A DNA stretch of 33,303 bases, from the NCBI GenBank assembly GCA_016934455.1, contig JAFGSX010000304.1, forward strand, positions 1 through 33,303. Direction: 5' to 3'. Shown here piece after piece: positions 24,715 through 33,303 of this stretch. The number at the start of each line of letters is the position of its first letter. The first letter of the stretch is position 1. Below the pieces are notes generated by a model. It saw only the letters and a program-made list of their open reading frames with translations, searched no databases and was not told the origin of the DNA. The translations under genes were made by a program, and so were the position numbers. The DNA is from Deltaproteobacteria bacterium (GTDB lineage: Bacteria > Myxococcota > JACRCW01 > JAFGSX01).

Positions 24715-24900
24715 GGTCGCTCCTGTGCGGTGACTCGATCATGATGCCCTGGCAAGGATCCCGCTGGCAAGGGGCGGCGTGGATCGGGGTCGACCGCAGA
24801 GCAGGCGCGGGCACGACCTCGCGGCCGGTCATTGCGGGCTGTCGATCCGGCCCCCGGGTCGGCTATCATCGCTCTCAGGGGTTGCTCCCCGGGAAACGCC

Positions 24901-25896
24901 ATGGCGATGGATGCGGATCGTGCGCTCGTTTCACGGCAGTGCCGGAGGGCGGTGGCCGGCGCGCTGGTCGTGCTCGGGGTCGGCTGCTCTGCGTCCTGCA
25001 TCTCGCCCAGCCCGCCCGATCCCAACGCCACCCGCGACGCCGCCGTCGACGCCAGCCACCCGCACGACGCCAGCCACCCGCGCGACGCGCAGCCCGGCGT
25101 CGACGCGGGCGCGCGCGACGCGGGCGCGGATAGCGCGGCAGATGCGAGCCCGCAGCGCGATGCGGCCGCTAGCGGCGATGCGGACGCCACCGGCGACGCG
25201 GGCGCCACCGGCGACGCGGGCGCCACCGGCGACGCGGGCGCGGGATGCGACGCCGGAGCTGGTTGTCAGCCCGGAACGCCGCTCCTGCCCGAAGTCCTGC
25301 GCAACGCGCGCGATCTCGGCGGCATCGCGCTCGGCGATGCTGGCGCGGTCGTCTGCGGTGTGCTCTACCGTGCAGCGCAGCCGACCGAGCTGACGGCCCA
25401 GGACTGTGCCGAGTTCGACCGGCTGGGCCTCCGGACCGTCATCGACCTGCGCACCGAGGGCGAGCGGCTCGCCGCGCCGGACTCCGCCTGTGTCACCTGG
25501 CACGCCGACATGACCCTGGCGCCGATGCCGGTCCCGGCCAGCGTCAGCCCCGAGGACTACCTGACCGACCTCAACGAAGCCGCTTCGATCAGGGCCGCCT
25601 TCGATCGATTTGGCGATCCCGCCGCTTACCCGATCCTTTTTCACTGCGTCTATGGCCGCGATCGCACCGGCATTTTGGCCGCCGTCGCGCTGTTGACCCT
25701 GGGCGCCTCGCGCGAGGCGGTGATGGCCGACTACATGCTGTCGGCCGACGCCGGCATGCGCGTCTATCCGGACAGTCTGACGGCGGTTCTCGACGATATC
25801 GAGCGCCGCGGCGGCATCGACGCCTACCTGCAACAGAGCGGCGTGCCGGCCGAGGACGCAGCAGCGCTGCGCGGCCAGGCGAGCTGCCGGCGCTGA
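24901..25896 (+). CDS. Lipoprotein tyrosine-type phosphatase (Y_phosphatase3-like)
   Basis: 331 residues from ATG 24901 (an alternative is ATG 24907). The N-terminus has basic residues and a hydrophobic stretch ending at Cys29 (LGVGC) or Cys33 (CSASC), so lipidation is likely though the lipobox is not classical. Residues about 35-115 are an Asp/Ala/Gly spacer with three perfect ATGDAG units. The catalytic domain (about 128-325) opens with LRNARDLGGIALGDAG and YRAAQPTELT, contains VIDLRTEGER, and has the CX5R active site HCVYGRDRTG (Cys249, Arg255), followed by ADYMLSADAG. This matches the family of tyrosine/dual-specificity phosphatases related to PF13350-type enzymes. Lipid anchoring outside the cytoplasm is the odd point: the substrate may be a phospho-sugar, phytate-like or phosphoprotein target in the envelope or surroundings. 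The upstream gap 24715-24900 holds TATCAT (24859-24864) as a weak -10 candidate. Confidence 0.86.
   Translation: MAMDADRALVSRQCRRAVAGALVVLGVGCSASCISPSPPDPNATRDAAVDASHPHDASHPRDAQPGVDAGARDAGADSAADASPQRDAAASGDADATGDAGATGDAGATGDAGAGCDAGAGCQPGTPLLPEVLRNARDLGGIALGDAGAVVCGVLYRAAQPTELTAQDCAEFDRLGLRTVIDLRTEGERLAAPDSACVTWHADMTLAPMPVPASVSPEDYLTDLNEAASIRAAFDRFGDPAAYPILFHCVYGRDRTGILAAVALLTLGASREAVMADYMLSADAGMRVYPDSLTAVLDDIERRGGIDAYLQQSGVPAEDAAALRGQASCRR
25186..25239 (+). repeat. Three perfect 18-bp tandem repeats in a lipoprotein spacer
   Basis: GCCACCGGCGACGCGGGC occurs three times without a mismatch (25186, 25204, 25222). Each unit codes for ATGDAG. It extends the spacer of the phosphatase lipoprotein and can change in length without a frameshift. 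Confidence 0.95.
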
Positions 25897-25923: not shown

Positions 25924-25953
25924 TCGACTGTCTTAACCCTTGGTATGTACAAT
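25924..25953 (+). promoter_or_regulatory. Candidate promoter of the three-lipoprotein operon
   Basis: TCGACT (25924-25929) and TACAAT (25948-25953) are separated by 18 bp in an AT-richer patch. The predicted transcript start is about 50 nt before the chosen GTG start 26009. The -10 sits in the octamer TGTACAAT, which is shared with the gap before 23123. Confidence 0.4.
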
Positions 25954-26008
25954 GAGATGGTATGGGGTCCTTTCGATTCCGGGTCCGACCGCGGGGCCGA
26001 GGACGGCT

Positions 26009-27046
26009 GTGGTGAACAAGAGCGGGATTGAGCGGGCGTCCCAGCCGCGCCGCGGCCGCGCGCGCCGGCTGCTCGCCGCTGCCCTGGGAGCGGTGCTCGC
26101 TGCGTGTCCGGACATCAATACCAGCGCCATCCGGTACGTCGCTCGCGGGGTTGACGGGTTTGTCCTCCAGGACAGCGGGGGCAGCGACACCCAGGCGCTG
26201 CCGGACACGTCGCTTCCGGATTCGGGTGCGATCGACTCGAACGGCCGGCCCGACCGTCCGATCCTGGTGACCGACAGCGCTGGCTTCGATGGCGCGCGCC
26301 CGGACGCCGCGACCGGCCGCGACAGCGGATCGGCCTGCATCCCCAGCAACTTCAGCTTTTTTGTCGTCAGCCTGCAGAAAATCCAGGAGTGGGGTGGGGA
26401 CGAAGGGCTGGGGGGCAACCTGGGCGGCCTGGCGGGGGCCGACGCCAAGTGCCAGGAGGCGGCCGAGGCGGTGGGCTCGTGCAAGACCTGGCGCGCCTTT
26501 TTGAGCGTCACCGACGACGGAACCGGCAACCCGGTGCACGCCATCGACCGCATCGGCAGCGGTCCCTGGTACGACGTCAACGGCTACCTGGTGGCGGAGA
26601 ACGTCGCCGGTCTGCTGCAGACCCGGCCCGCCGGCGACACCGACGTCATCTGGTACGACGACTGGAACCGGGGCTGGCCCTTCAACCAGTGTCTGACCAC
26701 GGAGCTCGGCAACTGCAACCACAGCTACGGCGACTCGCACGACACGCTGACCGGCTCCAACCGCCAGGGCCGGCTCTATAGCACCGATTCCAGGTACACC
26801 TGCAACGACTGGACGAGCAGCGACGTCAACGTGCAGTTGCCGATCGGCCACTCGTGGCCGCGCCAGCTCAACTCGACCCGCGATGACGACGCCAACTGGA
26901 TCTACGCCCACTCCAACTGCACCAGCGGCCCGGGCGGCGGCGGCACCTGCAACGGCTGCGGCCGCAACATCAACCTGCTGGACACGATGGAACCGGGGGT
27001 CGGCGGCGACGGCGGCTACGGCTCCTGGTACTGCTTTGCACTCTGA
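26009..27046 (+). CDS. Lipoprotein with NC10/C-type-lectin-like (DUF1554-type) domain
   Basis: 345 residues from GTG 26009. This start has GAGG six bases upstream and gives a compact signal peptide (basic RRGRARR, hydrophobic, LAAC with lipid Cys33); the in-frame ATG at 25952 would make the n-region about 19 residues longer and sits on the candidate -10 box. A spacer to about residue 105 follows. The C-terminal domain (about 118-345) begins GNLGGLAGADAKCQEAAEA...WRAFLS and ends CNGCGRNINLLDTMEP...GGYGSWYCFAL, the pattern of collagen-NC10/endostatin-like or DUF1554 domains with a C-type lectin fold. In between, WYDDWNRGWPFNQCLTTE and CNDWTSSDVNVQLPIGHSWP fit the binding face. It probably binds a ligand at the cell surface. 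First gene of a three-gene operon (19 bp to the next). Confidence 0.8.
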   Translation: MVNKSGIERASQPRRGRARRLLAAALGAVLAACPDINTSAIRYVARGVDGFVLQDSGGSDTQALPDTSLPDSGAIDSNGRPDRPILVTDSAGFDGARPDAATGRDSGSACIPSNFSFFVVSLQKIQEWGGDEGLGGNLGGLAGADAKCQEAAEAVGSCKTWRAFLSVTDDGTGNPVHAIDRIGSGPWYDVNGYLVAENVAGLLQTRPAGDTDVIWYDDWNRGWPFNQCLTTELGNCNHSYGDSHDTLTGSNRQGRLYSTDSRYTCNDWTSSDVNVQLPIGHSWPRQLNSTRDDDANWIYAHSNCTSGPGGGGTCNGCGRNINLLDTMEPGVGGDGGYGSWYCFAL

Positions 27047-27065: not shown

Positions 27066-27875
27066 ATGAAGATCCATCGTGCCTTGGCGTTGTCTGGTCT
27101 CCTGGTCGTCGCTGCGTCGGGCTGCGATCCGGTTTCGGGGGCCGACGCCGGCAGCGCCGACGCCGGCGGCGCTGACGCCGGCGGCAGCCCCGATGCCTAC
27201 TGCCCCGCCGCCTTCGAGTGGTACGTCGAGAACGCGAGCGGCCAGGCCAAGCCGGTGGGCGAGAAGCAGCCCAACCCGTTTGGCCTCTACGACATGCTGG
27301 GCAACGCCGTGGAGTGGGTTTCAGACTGCTACCACGCGAGCTACACCGGCGCCCCCGCCGACGGCAGCTCGTGGGACGAGGCGGTCTGCGACTACCGCAT
27401 CGTGCGCGGCGGCTGCTACGGCTCGACCGCGCGCGGCATCCGGGTCTCGGTGCGCGACGGCGTCACGCCCAGCTTCTACGGCGCCTGTGCGCCGACCATC
27501 CGCTGCGTCCGCACCTCGGCCGGCGGCGGCAACCCGCTGATCACGCCGACCTGGGTGCACGTGCCGGCGGGCACCTTGGACATGGGCTGCTCGGCGGGAG
27601 ACGACCAGTGCGCCGACAACGAGCTGCCGTCGCACCCGGTCAGCGTCGGCGCCTTCGAGATGACCGCCACCGAGCTGACGCAGCAGCAGTACTTCGACCA
27701 GACCGGCGAGGCGCCTCCGTCGACCTACTACTGCCCGGAGTGCGCCGTGACCTACGTGATGTGGGACGCGGCCAAGGCGTTCTGCGAGGCGCTCGGCGGC
27801 CGGTTGCCCACCGAGGCCGAGTGGGAGTACGCGGCGCGGGGCGGCACCACCGGCCGCTACTACTGCGGCGACTAG
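27066..27875 (+). CDS. Lipoprotein with an apparently circularly permuted FGE-sulfatase-like domain
   Basis: 269 residues from ATG 27066 (GGAGAAGG upstream). Signal peptide ending in ASGC (lipid Cys20), then a short ADAGG spacer to about residue 44. Residues 46-149 are the C-terminal half of an FGE/SUMF1-like domain: FEWYVENASGQAKPVGEKQP, NPFGLYDMLGNAVEWVSDCY, YRIVRGGCYG, then TIRCVR, which normally ends the fold. Residues 162-269 are the N-terminal half: WVHVPAGTLDMGC, ELPSHPVSVGAFEM, TELTQQQYF, then FCEALGGRLPTEAEWEYAAR and GGTTGRYYCGD followed by the stop. Normally the second block precedes the first. The cut ends fit together with no evident loss. The catalytic Cys pair of true FGE (after RGGS) is not present, so sulfatase activation is unlikely; a ligand-binding or structural role is more likely. 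Second gene of the lipoprotein operon, 16 bp before cotH. Confidence 0.85.
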   Translation: MKIHRALALSGLLVVAASGCDPVSGADAGSADAGGADAGGSPDAYCPAAFEWYVENASGQAKPVGEKQPNPFGLYDMLGNAVEWVSDCYHASYTGAPADGSSWDEAVCDYRIVRGGCYGSTARGIRVSVRDGVTPSFYGACAPTIRCVRTSAGGGNPLITPTWVHVPAGTLDMGCSAGDDQCADNELPSHPVSVGAFEMTATELTQQQYFDQTGEAPPSTYYCPECAVTYVMWDAAKAFCEALGGRLPTEAEWEYAARGGTTGRYYCGD

Positions 27876-27891: not shown

Positions 27892-29358
27892 ATGAGGCGG
27901 TCACCGATCCTGTTGGCGTCGACGCTGCTGGCGGCCCTGTCCGCGGTCGCCTGCCCGCCCGCGACGCCGACGACCCCCGACGCGGTGGTCTGCGACGGCG
28001 ACGCGCCCGACCTGGTGCGGCCCGACTTCTGGCAGCGGGAGAGCCACTGCCCGGGCGTCGCGCCCGGCTACTCCAGGTTGTTCGACGATCGGGTGCACCG
28101 GTTCGAGATCGCGATCTCGCGCGCCGATCGCGCGGCCACGCTGGAGGACATGGACGAGAAATACAGCGGCGGCAGCAGCAGCGGCGACCTCGACGATTCG
28201 CCCAAGCCGATGTGGGTGCCCGCCACCGTCCGCCTGGGCGAACGGCAGTGGACCCAGGTCGGCATGCGCTACAAGGGCCACTCGTCTCTCAAGGCGGCCT
28301 GGCAGAGCGGCGTGCGCAAGCTCGCCTTCATCCTCGAGTTCGACCACTACGAGGAAGGCCACGCCGAGCTCGCCGACCAGCGCTGCTACGGCTTCAAGAA
28401 GCTGTCGTTCTCCAATGCCTTCAACGACCCGTCGCTGATCCGCGAGAAGCTGGCGAGCGACATCTTCCGCGTCGGCGGCGTGCCGACCGCGCGCACCGCC
28501 TTCGCCGCGGTCTACGTCGACTGGGGTGACGGCTTGACCTACTTCGGGCTCTACACCGTGATCGAGGACCCGTGCGACAAGATGCTAGACACCCAGATCG
28601 GCGACGGCTCGGGCGCGCTCTACAAGCCCTGGGGCGACGCCGCGCGCTGGCTCGGCCTGGAGGAGATCGATCGGGCCGCGCTCGCGCTCTACTTCGAGAC
28701 CTGCTCCAGCCGCGACGAACCCGCCGGCGACGACGTGGCGACAGCGATCGCGGCGCTGCACTCGGATCGCGACCTGCCCGCGATCTGGCGCACCGACCTC
28801 GAGCGGGTGTTCGACGTCGGGGCCTTTCTCCGCGCGCTGGCCATCAACCAGGTCATCATGAACTGGGACAGCTACGGCTGCATGCACCACAACTACTACG
28901 TCTACGCCAATCCGGAGGACGGCGGCCGCTTCCTGTGGTTGCCGTGGGATCTCAACGAGTCGATGCTGCGGCGGACCCAGGCCCGGTGCCCGGAGCCGGG
29001 CTCGGTCATGCTCGACGAGATCGCGCTCGCCGATCCCGCCGATCCGTCTTTGACCGTCGACCACAACTGGCCCCTGATCCGGTTTCTGCTCGCCGACCCG
29101 GTCTATCGCCAGGACTACCGGAGCGAGCTGCGCCGCGCGCTGGATGGCGCGTTCGCCGCCGACGAGGTGGCGGCGCAGATGCAGCGGTGGCACGATCTGG
29201 TCGCGCCCTACGTGGCGGGGCCGATCGCGACCGAGGTCTTCCCCTATACCAACACCACGGTCGACGGCTTCGACGGCTCGCTCACCGCGGGCGCCAACGC
29301 CCTGATCCCGCACCTGGCGGCACGCCACGCGGCGGTCGAGGCGGCGCTGGCGCAGTAG
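27892..29358 (+). CDS. CotH-kinase-family lipoprotein
   Basis: 488 residues from ATG 27892, with GGAG upstream. The signal ends in AVAC (lipid Cys21). The domain follows the CotH pattern: FEIAISRADRAATLEDM, VGMRYKGHSSLKAAW, KLAFILEFDHY, KKLSFSNAFNDPSLIREKLA, then FGLYTVIEDPCDKML, and the core NWDSYGCMHHNYYVYANPED with GRFLWLPWDLNES (about 324-357), which holds the Asp residues taken as metal/ATP-binding in CotH kinases. In Bacillus, CotH phosphorylates spore-coat proteins; in other bacteria the family is seen on exported proteins of unknown target. Here it is lipid-anchored and sits third in an operon with a lectin-like and an FGE-like lipoprotein, which could be its substrates or partners (inference). 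Length is normal and no motif looks broken. Confidence 0.88.
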   Translation: MRRSPILLASTLLAALSAVACPPATPTTPDAVVCDGDAPDLVRPDFWQRESHCPGVAPGYSRLFDDRVHRFEIAISRADRAATLEDMDEKYSGGSSSGDLDDSPKPMWVPATVRLGERQWTQVGMRYKGHSSLKAAWQSGVRKLAFILEFDHYEEGHAELADQRCYGFKKLSFSNAFNDPSLIREKLASDIFRVGGVPTARTAFAAVYVDWGDGLTYFGLYTVIEDPCDKMLDTQIGDGSGALYKPWGDAARWLGLEEIDRAALALYFETCSSRDEPAGDDVATAIAALHSDRDLPAIWRTDLERVFDVGAFLRALAINQVIMNWDSYGCMHHNYYVYANPEDGGRFLWLPWDLNESMLRRTQARCPEPGSVMLDEIALADPADPSLTVDHNWPLIRFLLADPVYRQDYRSELRRALDGAFAADEVAAQMQRWHDLVAPYVAGPIATEVFPYTNTTVDGFDGSLTAGANALIPHLAARHAAVEAALAQ

Positions 29359-30099: not shown

Positions 30100-33000
30100 T
30101 CACGGCGCGCGGTAGCGCACCCGCACCTCGATGTAGTCGAGCGCCACCCGGGCGTCGTCGGTGCCAGAAAGACCAGATGGGCGGCACTGAAAGTGCAGCG
30201 AGCGGTCGTGCTCGAACAGGTAGGCCTTCGCCTCGTCGGCCGAGGCCGCGCTCCAGTCGATGAGCGCTCCGGGCGGCGCCGGCAGGTGGGGTTCCGCTGT
30301 CGATGCGAAGGCGGAGTTGGAGGCCAGCTCGCGCCAGCTCCCAGGTGGCAGCCCCAGGCCGCCGATGGACCAACCCAGCAGTGTGGCACCGACGTCGTTT
30401 GCGTCAAAGGGTGCGAAGGTCCCGCCGCAGTGCGCGCGCACGCGCAGACCGGTCAGTTCAGCGGCAGAGAAGCCAGCTACAGCCGCAGCGACGTCAAACT
30501 GGAATGCTGGACGGTGAGCCGCGCCGCCGTCGTATTCCCAGGTTTCTGGACATGCCCCCCCCATGGTGTCTCTGCCACCGAAGACCACGATACGGTCGCG
30601 AGCGATGTCATAGGCCATGGCGTGTCTCCAGCGCCCGGCAGGAATCTCGGCGACCGGTATCCGTTGGGTCCAGTCCTGGCCGTCCCACTCCCAGACGTCA
30701 TTCACGTAGTCGTAGCCGCCGCAGTAACCTCCGAACATCACGACGTGACCACGCGCGCCATAGAAGGCCAGGGTGGGGCTCCAGCGCGGTGACGGAGTGT
30801 TCGAAGCCGACGTCACCTCTGACCAGTCATCGCCGTCCCACTCCCAGGTGTCCTGGAGAAGGGAGACAGAGGAACTTTTTCCGCCAAACAGCACGACGCG
30901 GCCGCGAGCAGCATCGTAGGCCATTGCGTGATACTCGCGGGCCGGTGGCGACGCGGTGGCTGGTATCCGCTGCAACCAGCTCTGGCCATCCCATTCCCAG
31001 GTCTCCTGTCCGCTGTGATTGCCACCGAACACCACGAGACGGCCGCGCGCGCTGTCGTAGGCCATGGCATGTCGCCAGAAATCCGGTGGGCTACCGGAAG
31101 CCGGTGTCCGCACGAGCCAGTCCTGGCCATCCCACTCCCACAGGTCATTCATCGTCCCCAGGCTGCTGTAACCGCCTAACAGCACGACCCGTCCGCGCGC
31201 GCTGTCGTAGGCCATGGCGTGTCCATAGCGTGCAACAGGCGCGCCGGAAGCCGGCTCCACCTCGCTCCAGGCGCGACCGTCCCACTCCCAGGTGTCGTTG
31301 AGTCTCTGGCTATCAGAACGTCCTCCGAAGAGCACGATGCGGCCGCGGCTGCTATCGTAGGCCATCGCCGTTTCGGAGCGGGGCACCGGGCCTTCGTTAT
31401 CCGGTGTCAGCTCGACCCAGTCCTGACCATCCCACTCCCAAGTGTCCGCTACCGACTGCCAGGAGGGGTCGACTCCTGCGACCAGCACGACGCGGCTGCG
31501 AGCGACATCGAAAGCCGCTGCCGTGCCGGTGCGCGGCGGTGGGTTGGCGTCCCCGGGCGTCTGTTCGACCCACGCCTGGCCATCCCACTCCCAGGCGTCC
31601 AGCAAATAGTCATAGTAATCGACTTGTCCTCCAAAGAGCACGACGCGAGCACGCGCGCTGTCGAAGACCGCGACATGCCCCGAGCGTTTGGCGGGAATGT
31701 CGGAGACCGGGATCACCTCGGCCCAGACCTGGCCGTCCCACTCCCACGTGTCTTGCATTGGCCCGGCCGAGTTCCGGCCGCCAAACAGCACGACCCGGAC
31801 GCGCGCGCTGTCAAAGGCCAGGGCGGCTTCGTAGCGCTCCGGAGGATTGTCCGAATCCGGTGTTCGTTCGGTCCAGACTTCACCGTCCCACTCCCAGGTG
31901 TCCTGGAAAATCGCTCCCCTTGAGTCCTGGCCGCCAAACAGCACGACTCGCTGGCGCTGGCTGTCATAAACCATGGCGTGTTGGCCGCGCGCTGGCGGGT
32001 TGTCCTCAAACGGTGTCCGCTCGATCCATGATTGACCGTCCCACTCCCAGGTATCCTGCAGCTCTTCATCGAAGTCTTCTGGGAAATTGTGGTAGCCCCC
32101 GAAGAGCACGACGCATTCGCGCGTGCTGTCGTACGCCATGGCATGGGCGATGCGCACTGGCGGATTGTTGGCGGCTGGCGTTCTTTCAATCCAGTCCTGA
32201 CCGTCCCATTCCCAAGTGTCTCTGAGTAATCCCATTGCTTCGGCATTCATGCCGCCGAACAACACGGTGCGGCCGCGCTTGTTGTCATAGGCTACGGCGT
32301 GATAGGCGCGAGCAGTCACATTGGCCCTGGCTCCCCGTTCCCGCCAGCGCGGCTGTGCGCGCACAAGTTGCGCTGCGCCGTCGAAGCCAAAGGTCTCTGT
32401 CCCGCCGGAGCGGATCACAAGTGGATCCTGCTCCAGCGAATCGGCGACTTGGAGGCTTGCCTGCAGCAGATGCGGGCTGGCCGCGAACGCGGGTGGGTTG
32501 GGCGTGGCCACCCATTCGGCGTTTTCAATTTTTACCAATTCCGACGAGTTGCAGGCGCCATCGAAGCCGTCGACGAACGCGGAGGGCGTGTCGAGGTTGG
32601 CCAGGCGAAGGCGCGGCCAGGTCCCGTCACCGTTGGCCGCGGTCGAGCCCAGCAGCGACCCGCGCGCGGCGTCGGCCCACACCTGCAACAAGATCAGTTC
32701 TTCGTCGACCAGCTCAAAGGTGCTCGCGGCAAGGGCGCTCTGCGGCGCCAGATTGTCGACCGGCGCTAACTCATAATAAGGCCCGGCTGGGATCGCCAAG
32801 CCGCCCAGGTCCTCGGCCGCAGCATTGCCCCACGGCGAGCGCACGTAACGCACGGCGCTTTGGTCGACCAGCAGCGTCGGCGGCATGGTGTCGACGACCA
32901 GCGGCAAGGAGCAGTCGAGGCCGAGCATGGCGCGGTTGCCGACCTGGTCCACGACCTCGGCCTGCAGGTCGTGAAGTCCCTGGTACAGCGCCTCGTCGCC

Positions 33001-33303
33001 AAGAGTTTTTTCAAAGGCAAACGAGGTCACCAAGCCAGATCGGTGCTCGAATGTTATAGTCTCAGGTGTGCTGGTCCGGACCACGGGAAGGGTGGCCACT
33101 GGTTCATCGAGCACGAAGGCCACTCTCGCTGTCGCGCCGCGGGTCCAACGGCTGACCGTGTTGACCGGGCAGCCCGGTGGCGGCTGCAGGACCAGTTGCG
33201 CGGTGTCGGGCACCAACGCGGGCGACGTGAAGTCGAGCCGCACCAGCACGCTGGACACGCTCTCGTTGCCCGCCCCGTCGACCACCCGCACCACCGCGTT
33301 GAC
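30100..33303 (-). CDS. Large kelch-repeat surface protein, 5' end outside the window
   Basis: The frame is open at the right edge, so the true start lies beyond 33303; 1067 residues are visible. The N-terminal part contains Ig-like/cadherin-like strands (VRVVDGAGNES; LQAEVVDQVGNRAMLGLD; VVDTMPPTLLVD), typical of bacterial Ig-like repeats. Then follow about 12 kelch-like units, each near 50 residues, with the pattern R..HAMAYDSARGRVVLFGG ... DTWEWDGQ.W.E.TP. These would fold as beta-propeller blades. After the last WEYDGG there is a beta-rich C-terminal domain (about 930-1067) ending LDYIEVRVRYRAP, of unknown type. No membrane anchor is visible in this part; export signals would be in the missing N-terminus. 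It is probably an extracellular binding protein. It is upstream of the zinc-ribbon membrane protein gene. Confidence 0.9.
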   Translation of the reverse strand, partial: VNAVVRVVDGAGNESVSSVLVRLDFTSPALVPDTAQLVLQPPPGCPVNTVSRWTRGATARVAFVLDEPVATLPVVRTSTPETITFEHRSGLVTSFAFEKTLGDEALYQGLHDLQAEVVDQVGNRAMLGLDCSLPLVVDTMPPTLLVDQSAVRYVRSPWGNAAAEDLGGLAIPAGPYYELAPVDNLAPQSALAASTFELVDEELILLQVWADAARGSLLGSTAANGDGTWPRLRLANLDTPSAFVDGFDGACNSSELVKIENAEWVATPNPPAFAASPHLLQASLQVADSLEQDPLVIRSGGTETFGFDGAAQLVRAQPRWRERGARANVTARAYHAVAYDNKRGRTVLFGGMNAEAMGLLRDTWEWDGQDWIERTPAANNPPVRIAHAMAYDSTRECVVLFGGYHNFPEDFDEELQDTWEWDGQSWIERTPFEDNPPARGQHAMVYDSQRQRVVLFGGQDSRGAIFQDTWEWDGEVWTERTPDSDNPPERYEAALAFDSARVRVVLFGGRNSAGPMQDTWEWDGQVWAEVIPVSDIPAKRSGHVAVFDSARARVVLFGGQVDYYDYLLDAWEWDGQAWVEQTPGDANPPPRTGTAAAFDVARSRVVLVAGVDPSWQSVADTWEWDGQDWVELTPDNEGPVPRSETAMAYDSSRGRIVLFGGRSDSQRLNDTWEWDGRAWSEVEPASGAPVARYGHAMAYDSARGRVVLLGGYSSLGTMNDLWEWDGQDWLVRTPASGSPPDFWRHAMAYDSARGRLVVFGGNHSGQETWEWDGQSWLQRIPATASPPAREYHAMAYDAARGRVVLFGGKSSSVSLLQDTWEWDGDDWSEVTSASNTPSPRWSPTLAFYGARGHVVMFGGYCGGYDYVNDVWEWDGQDWTQRIPVAEIPAGRWRHAMAYDIARDRIVVFGGRDTMGGACPETWEYDGGAAHRPAFQFDVAAAVAGFSAAELTGLRVRAHCGGTFAPFDANDVGATLLGWSIGGLGLPPGSWRELASNSAFASTAEPHLPAPPGALIDWSAASADEAKAYLFEHDRSLHFQCRPSGLSGTDDARVALDYIEVRVRYRAP
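30522..32316 (-). repeat. About 12 kelch-type protein repeats, period near 150 bp
   Basis: The motif coding for DTWEWDGQ recurs about every 145-160 bp on the minus strand (seen from near 32220 down to 30535), together with a second block for HAMAYDSARGRVVLFGG. On the plus strand the recurring string reads roughly CCATCCCACTCCCAGGTGTC. Copies have diverged at third positions and in the variable loops, so the array is old or under selection, not a recent amplification. One unit has lost the FGG motif (VLVAG). Confidence 0.9.

Follow-up and report, generated by a model that had tools for sequence, protein, structure and literature searches.

A circularly permuted FGE/SUMF1-type domain in a predicted bacterial lipoprotein

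Introduction

The FGE/SUMF1 domain (Pfam PF03781) is common, and members of its family are exported modules found widely among complex bacterial genomes. The active-site cysteines of human FGE are C336 and C341. Members with other roles are also described, such as PorK, an outer-membrane lipoprotein in which the FGE fold has been repurposed as a structural, ring-forming component (PMC12421860). Circular permutation is a known kind of event; of its two standard models, one is duplication followed by trimming (PMC3320104). For the FGE domain itself, no description of a permuted form was found in the open-access literature. Here we analysed a stretch of 33,303 nucleotides (the window) of a genome assigned to Deltaproteobacteria, in which one lipoprotein gene had been predicted, from the letters of the DNA, to carry an FGE-like domain with its C-terminal half placed before its N-terminal half.

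Results

Gene and protein architecture

The features of the gene, of its product and of the neighbouring genes are listed in Table 1. The start codon of the 27066-27875 gene is preceded by a GGAG motif about 7 nt upstream of the ATG, and the single signal peptide and single stop codon that had been predicted to bound the whole are both intact in the 269-aa ORF. Judged by eye, the VAASGC motif is a loose lipobox fit, with A instead of L/V/I at position -3. D/A-rich linkers similar to that of the window protein also precede its unpermuted paralogues. The neighbours of the permuted gene are exported proteins without a known pathway; the secreted tyrosine-phosphatase-like lipoprotein lies two genes from the CotH kinase-family gene, and the end of the window (30100-33303) is occupied by a large protein with many Kelch repeats, which continues past the window end.

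Table 1. Positions of the permuted gene, its parts and its neighbours in the window
Feature	Position	Strand	Basis
Whole gene of the permuted protein, a predicted FGE-fold lipoprotein	27066..27875	+	ORF, 269 aa + TAG stop
Signal peptide, lipobox-like ...VAASGC; C20 the presumed lipidated cysteine	27066..27125	+	Sequence pattern, by eye
DAG-rich linker GADAGSADAGGADAGG, anchor to domain	27126..27191	+	Sequence
C-terminal half of FGE domain, first in chain, aa 43-149	27192..27512	+	PF03781 159-244
C46, first conserved cysteine beside break loop	27201..27203	+	C4 of alignment A1, invariant 9/9 rows
New linker TSAGGGNPLITP, 12 aa (150-161), old C-terminus to old N-terminus	27513..27548	+	Alignment A1
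N-terminal half of FGE domain, second in chain, aa 162-269, end RYYCGD	27549..27872	+	PF03781 3-131
C267, second conserved cysteine beside break loop	27864..27866	+	C225 of alignment A1, invariant 9/9 rows
Probable lipoprotein, tyrosine phosphatase domain after DAG-rich linker	24832-25896		PF13350 E 6.8e-38
Upstream neighbour, probable lipoprotein, weak DUF1554/endostatin-like match	25940..27046	+	Under Pfam cut-off
Downstream neighbour, CotH kinase-family lipoprotein	27892..29358	+	PF08757 E 2.5e-48

Swapped order of the two halves

PF03781 matched the window protein at 145 bits (E 3.8e-42; Pfam cut-off 23.3 bits) in two stretches, with profile positions 159-244 at aa 55-138 (27228-27479) followed by profile positions 3-131 at aa 162-269 (27546-27863), so that the canonical N-to-C order of the profile is reversed; a score so far over the cut-off together with the reversed order excludes chance. 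All parts of the domain are present, and both halves are complete in comparison with the paralogues, covering 1-106 of a purpose-built C-half HMM and 1-108 of a purpose-built N-half HMM. The original prediction had begun the C-terminal half at residue 46, which was refined to residue 43, while the extent given for the N-terminal half was kept; the short linker it had proposed between the halves was placed by alignment, where TSAGGGNPLITP joins the old C-terminus (IRCVR) to the old N-terminus (TWVHVPAG).

Alignment A1 was composed of the window protein, five unpermuted FGE lipoproteins of its own genome (two on contig C170 and one each on C197, C295 and C456) and three related unpermuted sequences, all eight of which were cut at the same loop with their halves swapped. 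The window protein is 44-51% identical to these eight sequences, retains all eight invariant cysteines of the alignment and loses zero columns at the break (RYYCGD|DAYC). The predicted complementarity of the break points is likewise borne out, as RYYCGD from the end, joined to DAYCPAAFEWY from the start, matches YYCGDDAACLDGIAWY of the paralogues column by column. A profile of the virtually permuted paralogues matched the window gene from end to end (1-215 of 215, 338 bits), whereas the same permuted-order profile gave two separate half-matches, in the opposite order, on the unpermuted paralogues of the genome. Halves drawn from different paralogues, which the original prediction had named as a possible objection, were not seen, both halves taken separately being nearest to one clade of paralogues, in half-domain trees with too few columns for resolving forks. 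The GC3 of both halves (96-98%) is as expected for coding sequence in this genome. The order in the HMM match, the zero-loss alignment and the structure prediction described below support a single complete FGE domain that has been cleanly permuted, in a predicted lipoprotein.

Predicted fold

AlphaFold2 gave a compact model of the permuted protein with a pTM of 0.83 and, in blocks of 10 residues, a pLDDT of about 81-97 across the domain except at its ends, the signal peptide and linker being disordered; this is a confident prediction that the permuted chain adopts a compact fold. The alignment supplied, its register verified, comprised 59 rows: 27 C-halves, 27 N-halves, 4 C1-N2 pieces of tandem proteins and the query. 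Only the 4 tandem pieces spanned both halves besides the query, and the model depends on this alignment, since the single sequence reached a pTM of 0.21. In a Foldseek search against the PDB, which aligns sequentially, one half was superposed on PvdO over 96 columns with an rmsd of 1.6 A, and the whole-chain TM was 0.33 with about one third of the chain aligned; a low whole-chain TM with one half well superposed is the expectation for a permutant in a sequential aligner.

The N- and C-termini of FGE-type folds lie near each other, so a short linker suffices to join them, and we infer the same closeness of the old termini for the window protein. The new termini would fall in a loop at the surface that connects the WEYAARGG helix with the AWY segment; with old termini near each other and new termini in a surface loop, the chain would fold back into a normal closed FGE-like fold. 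The lipid anchor would thereby enter the domain at the break loop instead of at the old N-terminus, and an anchor moved in this way implies that the domain is presented to the membrane in a different orientation. A disulfide between C46 and C267 across the break loop would staple the new termini, and this cysteine pair is conserved in the clade of the window protein.

The halves might instead pair between molecules, giving dimers or chains rather than a closed monomer, which we regard as unlikely, as AlphaFold2 predicts one compact chain and the nearness of the termini in FGE-type folds makes a short linker enough. Such an assembly is favoured by the shortness of the linkers in the permutants (11-13 aa), by the ability of FGE-fold lipoproteins to form rings, as in PorK (PMC12421860), and by the segment swapping reported in the C-type lectin-like superfamily (PMC3779223).

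Permuted FGE genes in Treponemataceae

About 1,900 genomes were searched in all, with only the best candidates of each being scored. None of these candidates was an ortholog of the window gene, and a search for related loci with the single window-protein sequence gave no match. Permuted FGE genes were likewise not seen among the roughly 9-15 candidates scored per genome in the phylum of the window (195 genomes), Bacteroidota (317), Planctomycetota (314) and the phylum of a 'Myxococcales' record (312), where the long matches lay in long ORFs and those with order examined were tandem proteins. Viral loci of IMG/VR contained only normal or tandem orders, no long permuted FGE match was obtained in phage records, and Foldseek on viral models returned one weak FGE-like match.

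On the other hand, the permuted FGE domain, which the original prediction would have regarded as new, is not a one-off: the search for homologues in either order that had been proposed yielded permutants in Treponemataceae, though not an ortholog of the window gene. A tblastn match was observed to WP_002701809.1, encoded in C-then-N order on the complete Treponema saccharophilum plasmid NZ_AP025289.1 and annotated as a 'SUMF1/EgtB/PvdO family nonheme iron enzyme', an annotation silent on the permutation. A profile search of 393 Spirochaetota genomes revealed the permuted gene in four genomes (G433, G481, G532 and G627), with G433 encoding the T. saccharophilum protein at 100% identity, and a fifth, more distant permutant (L344 in G1699), with its break shifted by several residues, was found among 274 genomes of the same family; thus, five Treponemataceae genomes carry permuted FGE genes, four of which form one clade. 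Pfam matches on three Treponema representatives were all far over the cut-off, in two stretches each. Lipobox-like signals occur in the permutants L186/L282 and L344, while in the permutant P0002 the signal peptide lacks the cysteine. The Treponema proteins end in ...WEYAARGG(AK) and start with YSGSDDIDSVAWY, their break and that of the window protein lying in one and the same loop. In L344 (G1699:C24), YD/RHS-like repeats are situated N-terminal to the permuted domain (PF05593 E 0.003, under the cut-off).

The occurrence of these genes indicates that the architecture exists naturally. Moreover, the comparison of L279 with L282 (69% identical) gave a dS of about 1.0 and a dN of about 0.25, and the resulting dN/dS of about 0.24 indicates that the permuted gene of Treponema is under purifying selection. 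These observations bear on a decaying remnant of a tandem FGE gene, whose C1-N2 middle would be in frame by accident and would lack fold or function. Tandem FGE genes are common, the window protein sits on a long branch (1.4-1.55) and the search reported above found no ortholog of its gene, all of which would suit decay; we nevertheless consider it improbable, given that the gene is intact from the signal peptide through the linker and both halves to the stop, zero residues are lost at the break with the eight invariant cysteines of A1 retained, GC3 is that of coding sequence in both halves, and the Treponema permutants are under purifying selection. Similarly, a mis-assembly of a tandem or unpermuted gene, which the fragmentation of the genome into 613 contigs could invite, is very hard to credit, because it would need three in-frame joins, the assembly holds no unpermuted copy of the same gene (the best paralogue half is 58-60% identical), and the architecture is also present in other genomes, including the complete plasmid.

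Number of origins

In trees built from halves rejoined in the normal order, the window protein clustered with unpermuted proteins from its genome and phylum, with support of 100/99, and the Treponema permutants were placed among Treponema proteins. One ancient origin, or lateral exchange, could be read from the identical break loop of the two groups. This is extremely unlikely, since each permutant groups with unpermuted proteins of its own lineage, and constraining the window permutant to group with those of Treponema lowers the log-likelihood by 84 units, a single origin being rejected in AU tests (p 6e-5 and 2.7e-10). The rejection shows that at least two independent permutations have taken place, both in the same loop; with this swap having arisen separately in Treponema, the window gene seems to be a genuine product of natural rearrangement rather than a damaged gene. 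For L344 as a possible third event, the AU p was 0.36.

Tandem FGE proteins and a likely route to permutation

The distinct FGE ORFs collected, a biased sample, comprised 224 of NC order, 29 of NCNC order, many longer arrays and 6 of CN order. The tandem intermediates (NCNC) occur both in the phylum of the window and in Treponemataceae, and their C1-to-N2 linkers range from 5 aa, mostly 5-40, against 11-13 aa in the permutants. Some Treponemataceae loci (L339-L353) encode tandem arrays that are about 900-1760 aa long and made up of many diverged units, and units of such arrays in Treponema relatives resemble the permutants. The G1272 entries L334 and L337 show one complete FGE domain plus a partial N-half (NCN), an order that resembles a tandem intermediate with one end trimmed away. 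On contig C216 of the genome of the window (G000; L016, L018), a 575-aa protein contains two FGE-like domains with a D/A-rich spacer.

The FGE domain would have been duplicated into a tandem N1C1-N2C2 protein, from which N1 and C2 were then lost, leaving the C1-linker-N2 unit. This route of duplication and trimming is likely for the window permutant, because tandem FGE proteins are common, their C1-N2 unit is the permuted architecture and the linkers are similar. The genome of the window yielded no tandem precursor close to this gene, and direct repeats of the kind that mark a recent duplication were limited to short chance-like families. An adjoining tandem remnant, like a mis-assembly, was rejected as a candidate: tblastn of the flanks gave a single weak match (27% over 60 aa, E 0.047), and no copy lies nearby. 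A two-domain ancestor from which parts were deleted, which had been listed as an argument against the permutation, is probably the true origin, yet as a standard route to permutation it does not refute the claim.

Absence of the catalytic cysteines

The window protein and its paralogues lack the active-site cysteine pair that follows RGGSY in 6muj and human FGE, as judged by alignment, and RGGCYGSTARGIRVS of the window protein has no cysteine at the active-site positions of copper-dependent FGE. As the catalytic cysteines are absent, the window protein is probably without FGE activity, a non-catalytic binding or structural lipoprotein, and its domain would act in ligand binding or as a structural element located outside the inner membrane. 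The nearest solved sequences include PvdO (E 1.7e-17) and PorK (about 2e-14); the NCBIfam equivalogs PvdO, GldK/PorK, EgtB and SenA all scored far under their cut-offs, the best with 83 bits against 500 (PvdO). No reverse transcriptase, as would be expected near the variable protein of a diversity-generating retroelement, was found among 12 ORFs of the window searched against Pfam.

Discussion

Taken together, it is quite probable that the window gene encodes a natural permutant that arose by tandem duplication and trimming, with a closed FGE-like fold, no catalytic function and its anchor at the break loop. A broader proposal is tentative: FGE-fold lipoproteins may be repeatedly re-cut from tandem arrays at one permissive loop, with selection keeping the permutants for an anchor on a different face, which would change the displayed surface, and with a pre-existing cysteine pair stapling the ends in the lineage of the window.

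Two independent permutations in one loop provide a natural test of the topologies that the FGE/C-type-lectin fold tolerates, for which unpermuted paralogues, tandem arrays and permutants are all at hand for comparison, and the break loop is a usable site for engineering FGE scaffolds. Permuted PF03781 proteins are easily overlooked, as annotation pipelines call them ordinary SUMF1/EgtB/PvdO enzymes and sequential structure searches, with the low whole-chain TM seen here, hide them.

Comparison with known systems

The window protein shares the whole domain with the FGE/SUMF1 family and differs from it in its swapped halves, its lack of active-site cysteines and its predicted nature as a lipoprotein. 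PvdO, GldK/PorK and the other non-FGE members of the SUMF1 fold are unpermuted, unlike the window protein. WP_002701809.1 is likewise a natural permutant with its break in the same loop, but of independent origin and without a cysteine pair at the break. The best match of the Treponema permutant is TvpA (2y3c; E 1.4e-33), a variable protein of a Treponema denticola diversity-generating retroelement with an FGE-type C-type-lectin fold, which is itself unpermuted and diversified by the retroelement. The tandem FGE proteins of Treponema, Myxococcota, Bacteroidota and Planctomycetota contain the C1-linker-N2 unit that equals the permutant architecture, although, unlike the window protein, they begin with an N-half, end with a C-half and comprise at least two complete domains. 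With saposin/swaposin and other natural circular permutants (PMC3320104), the window protein would share the duplication-and-trimming model, whereas the fold is different.
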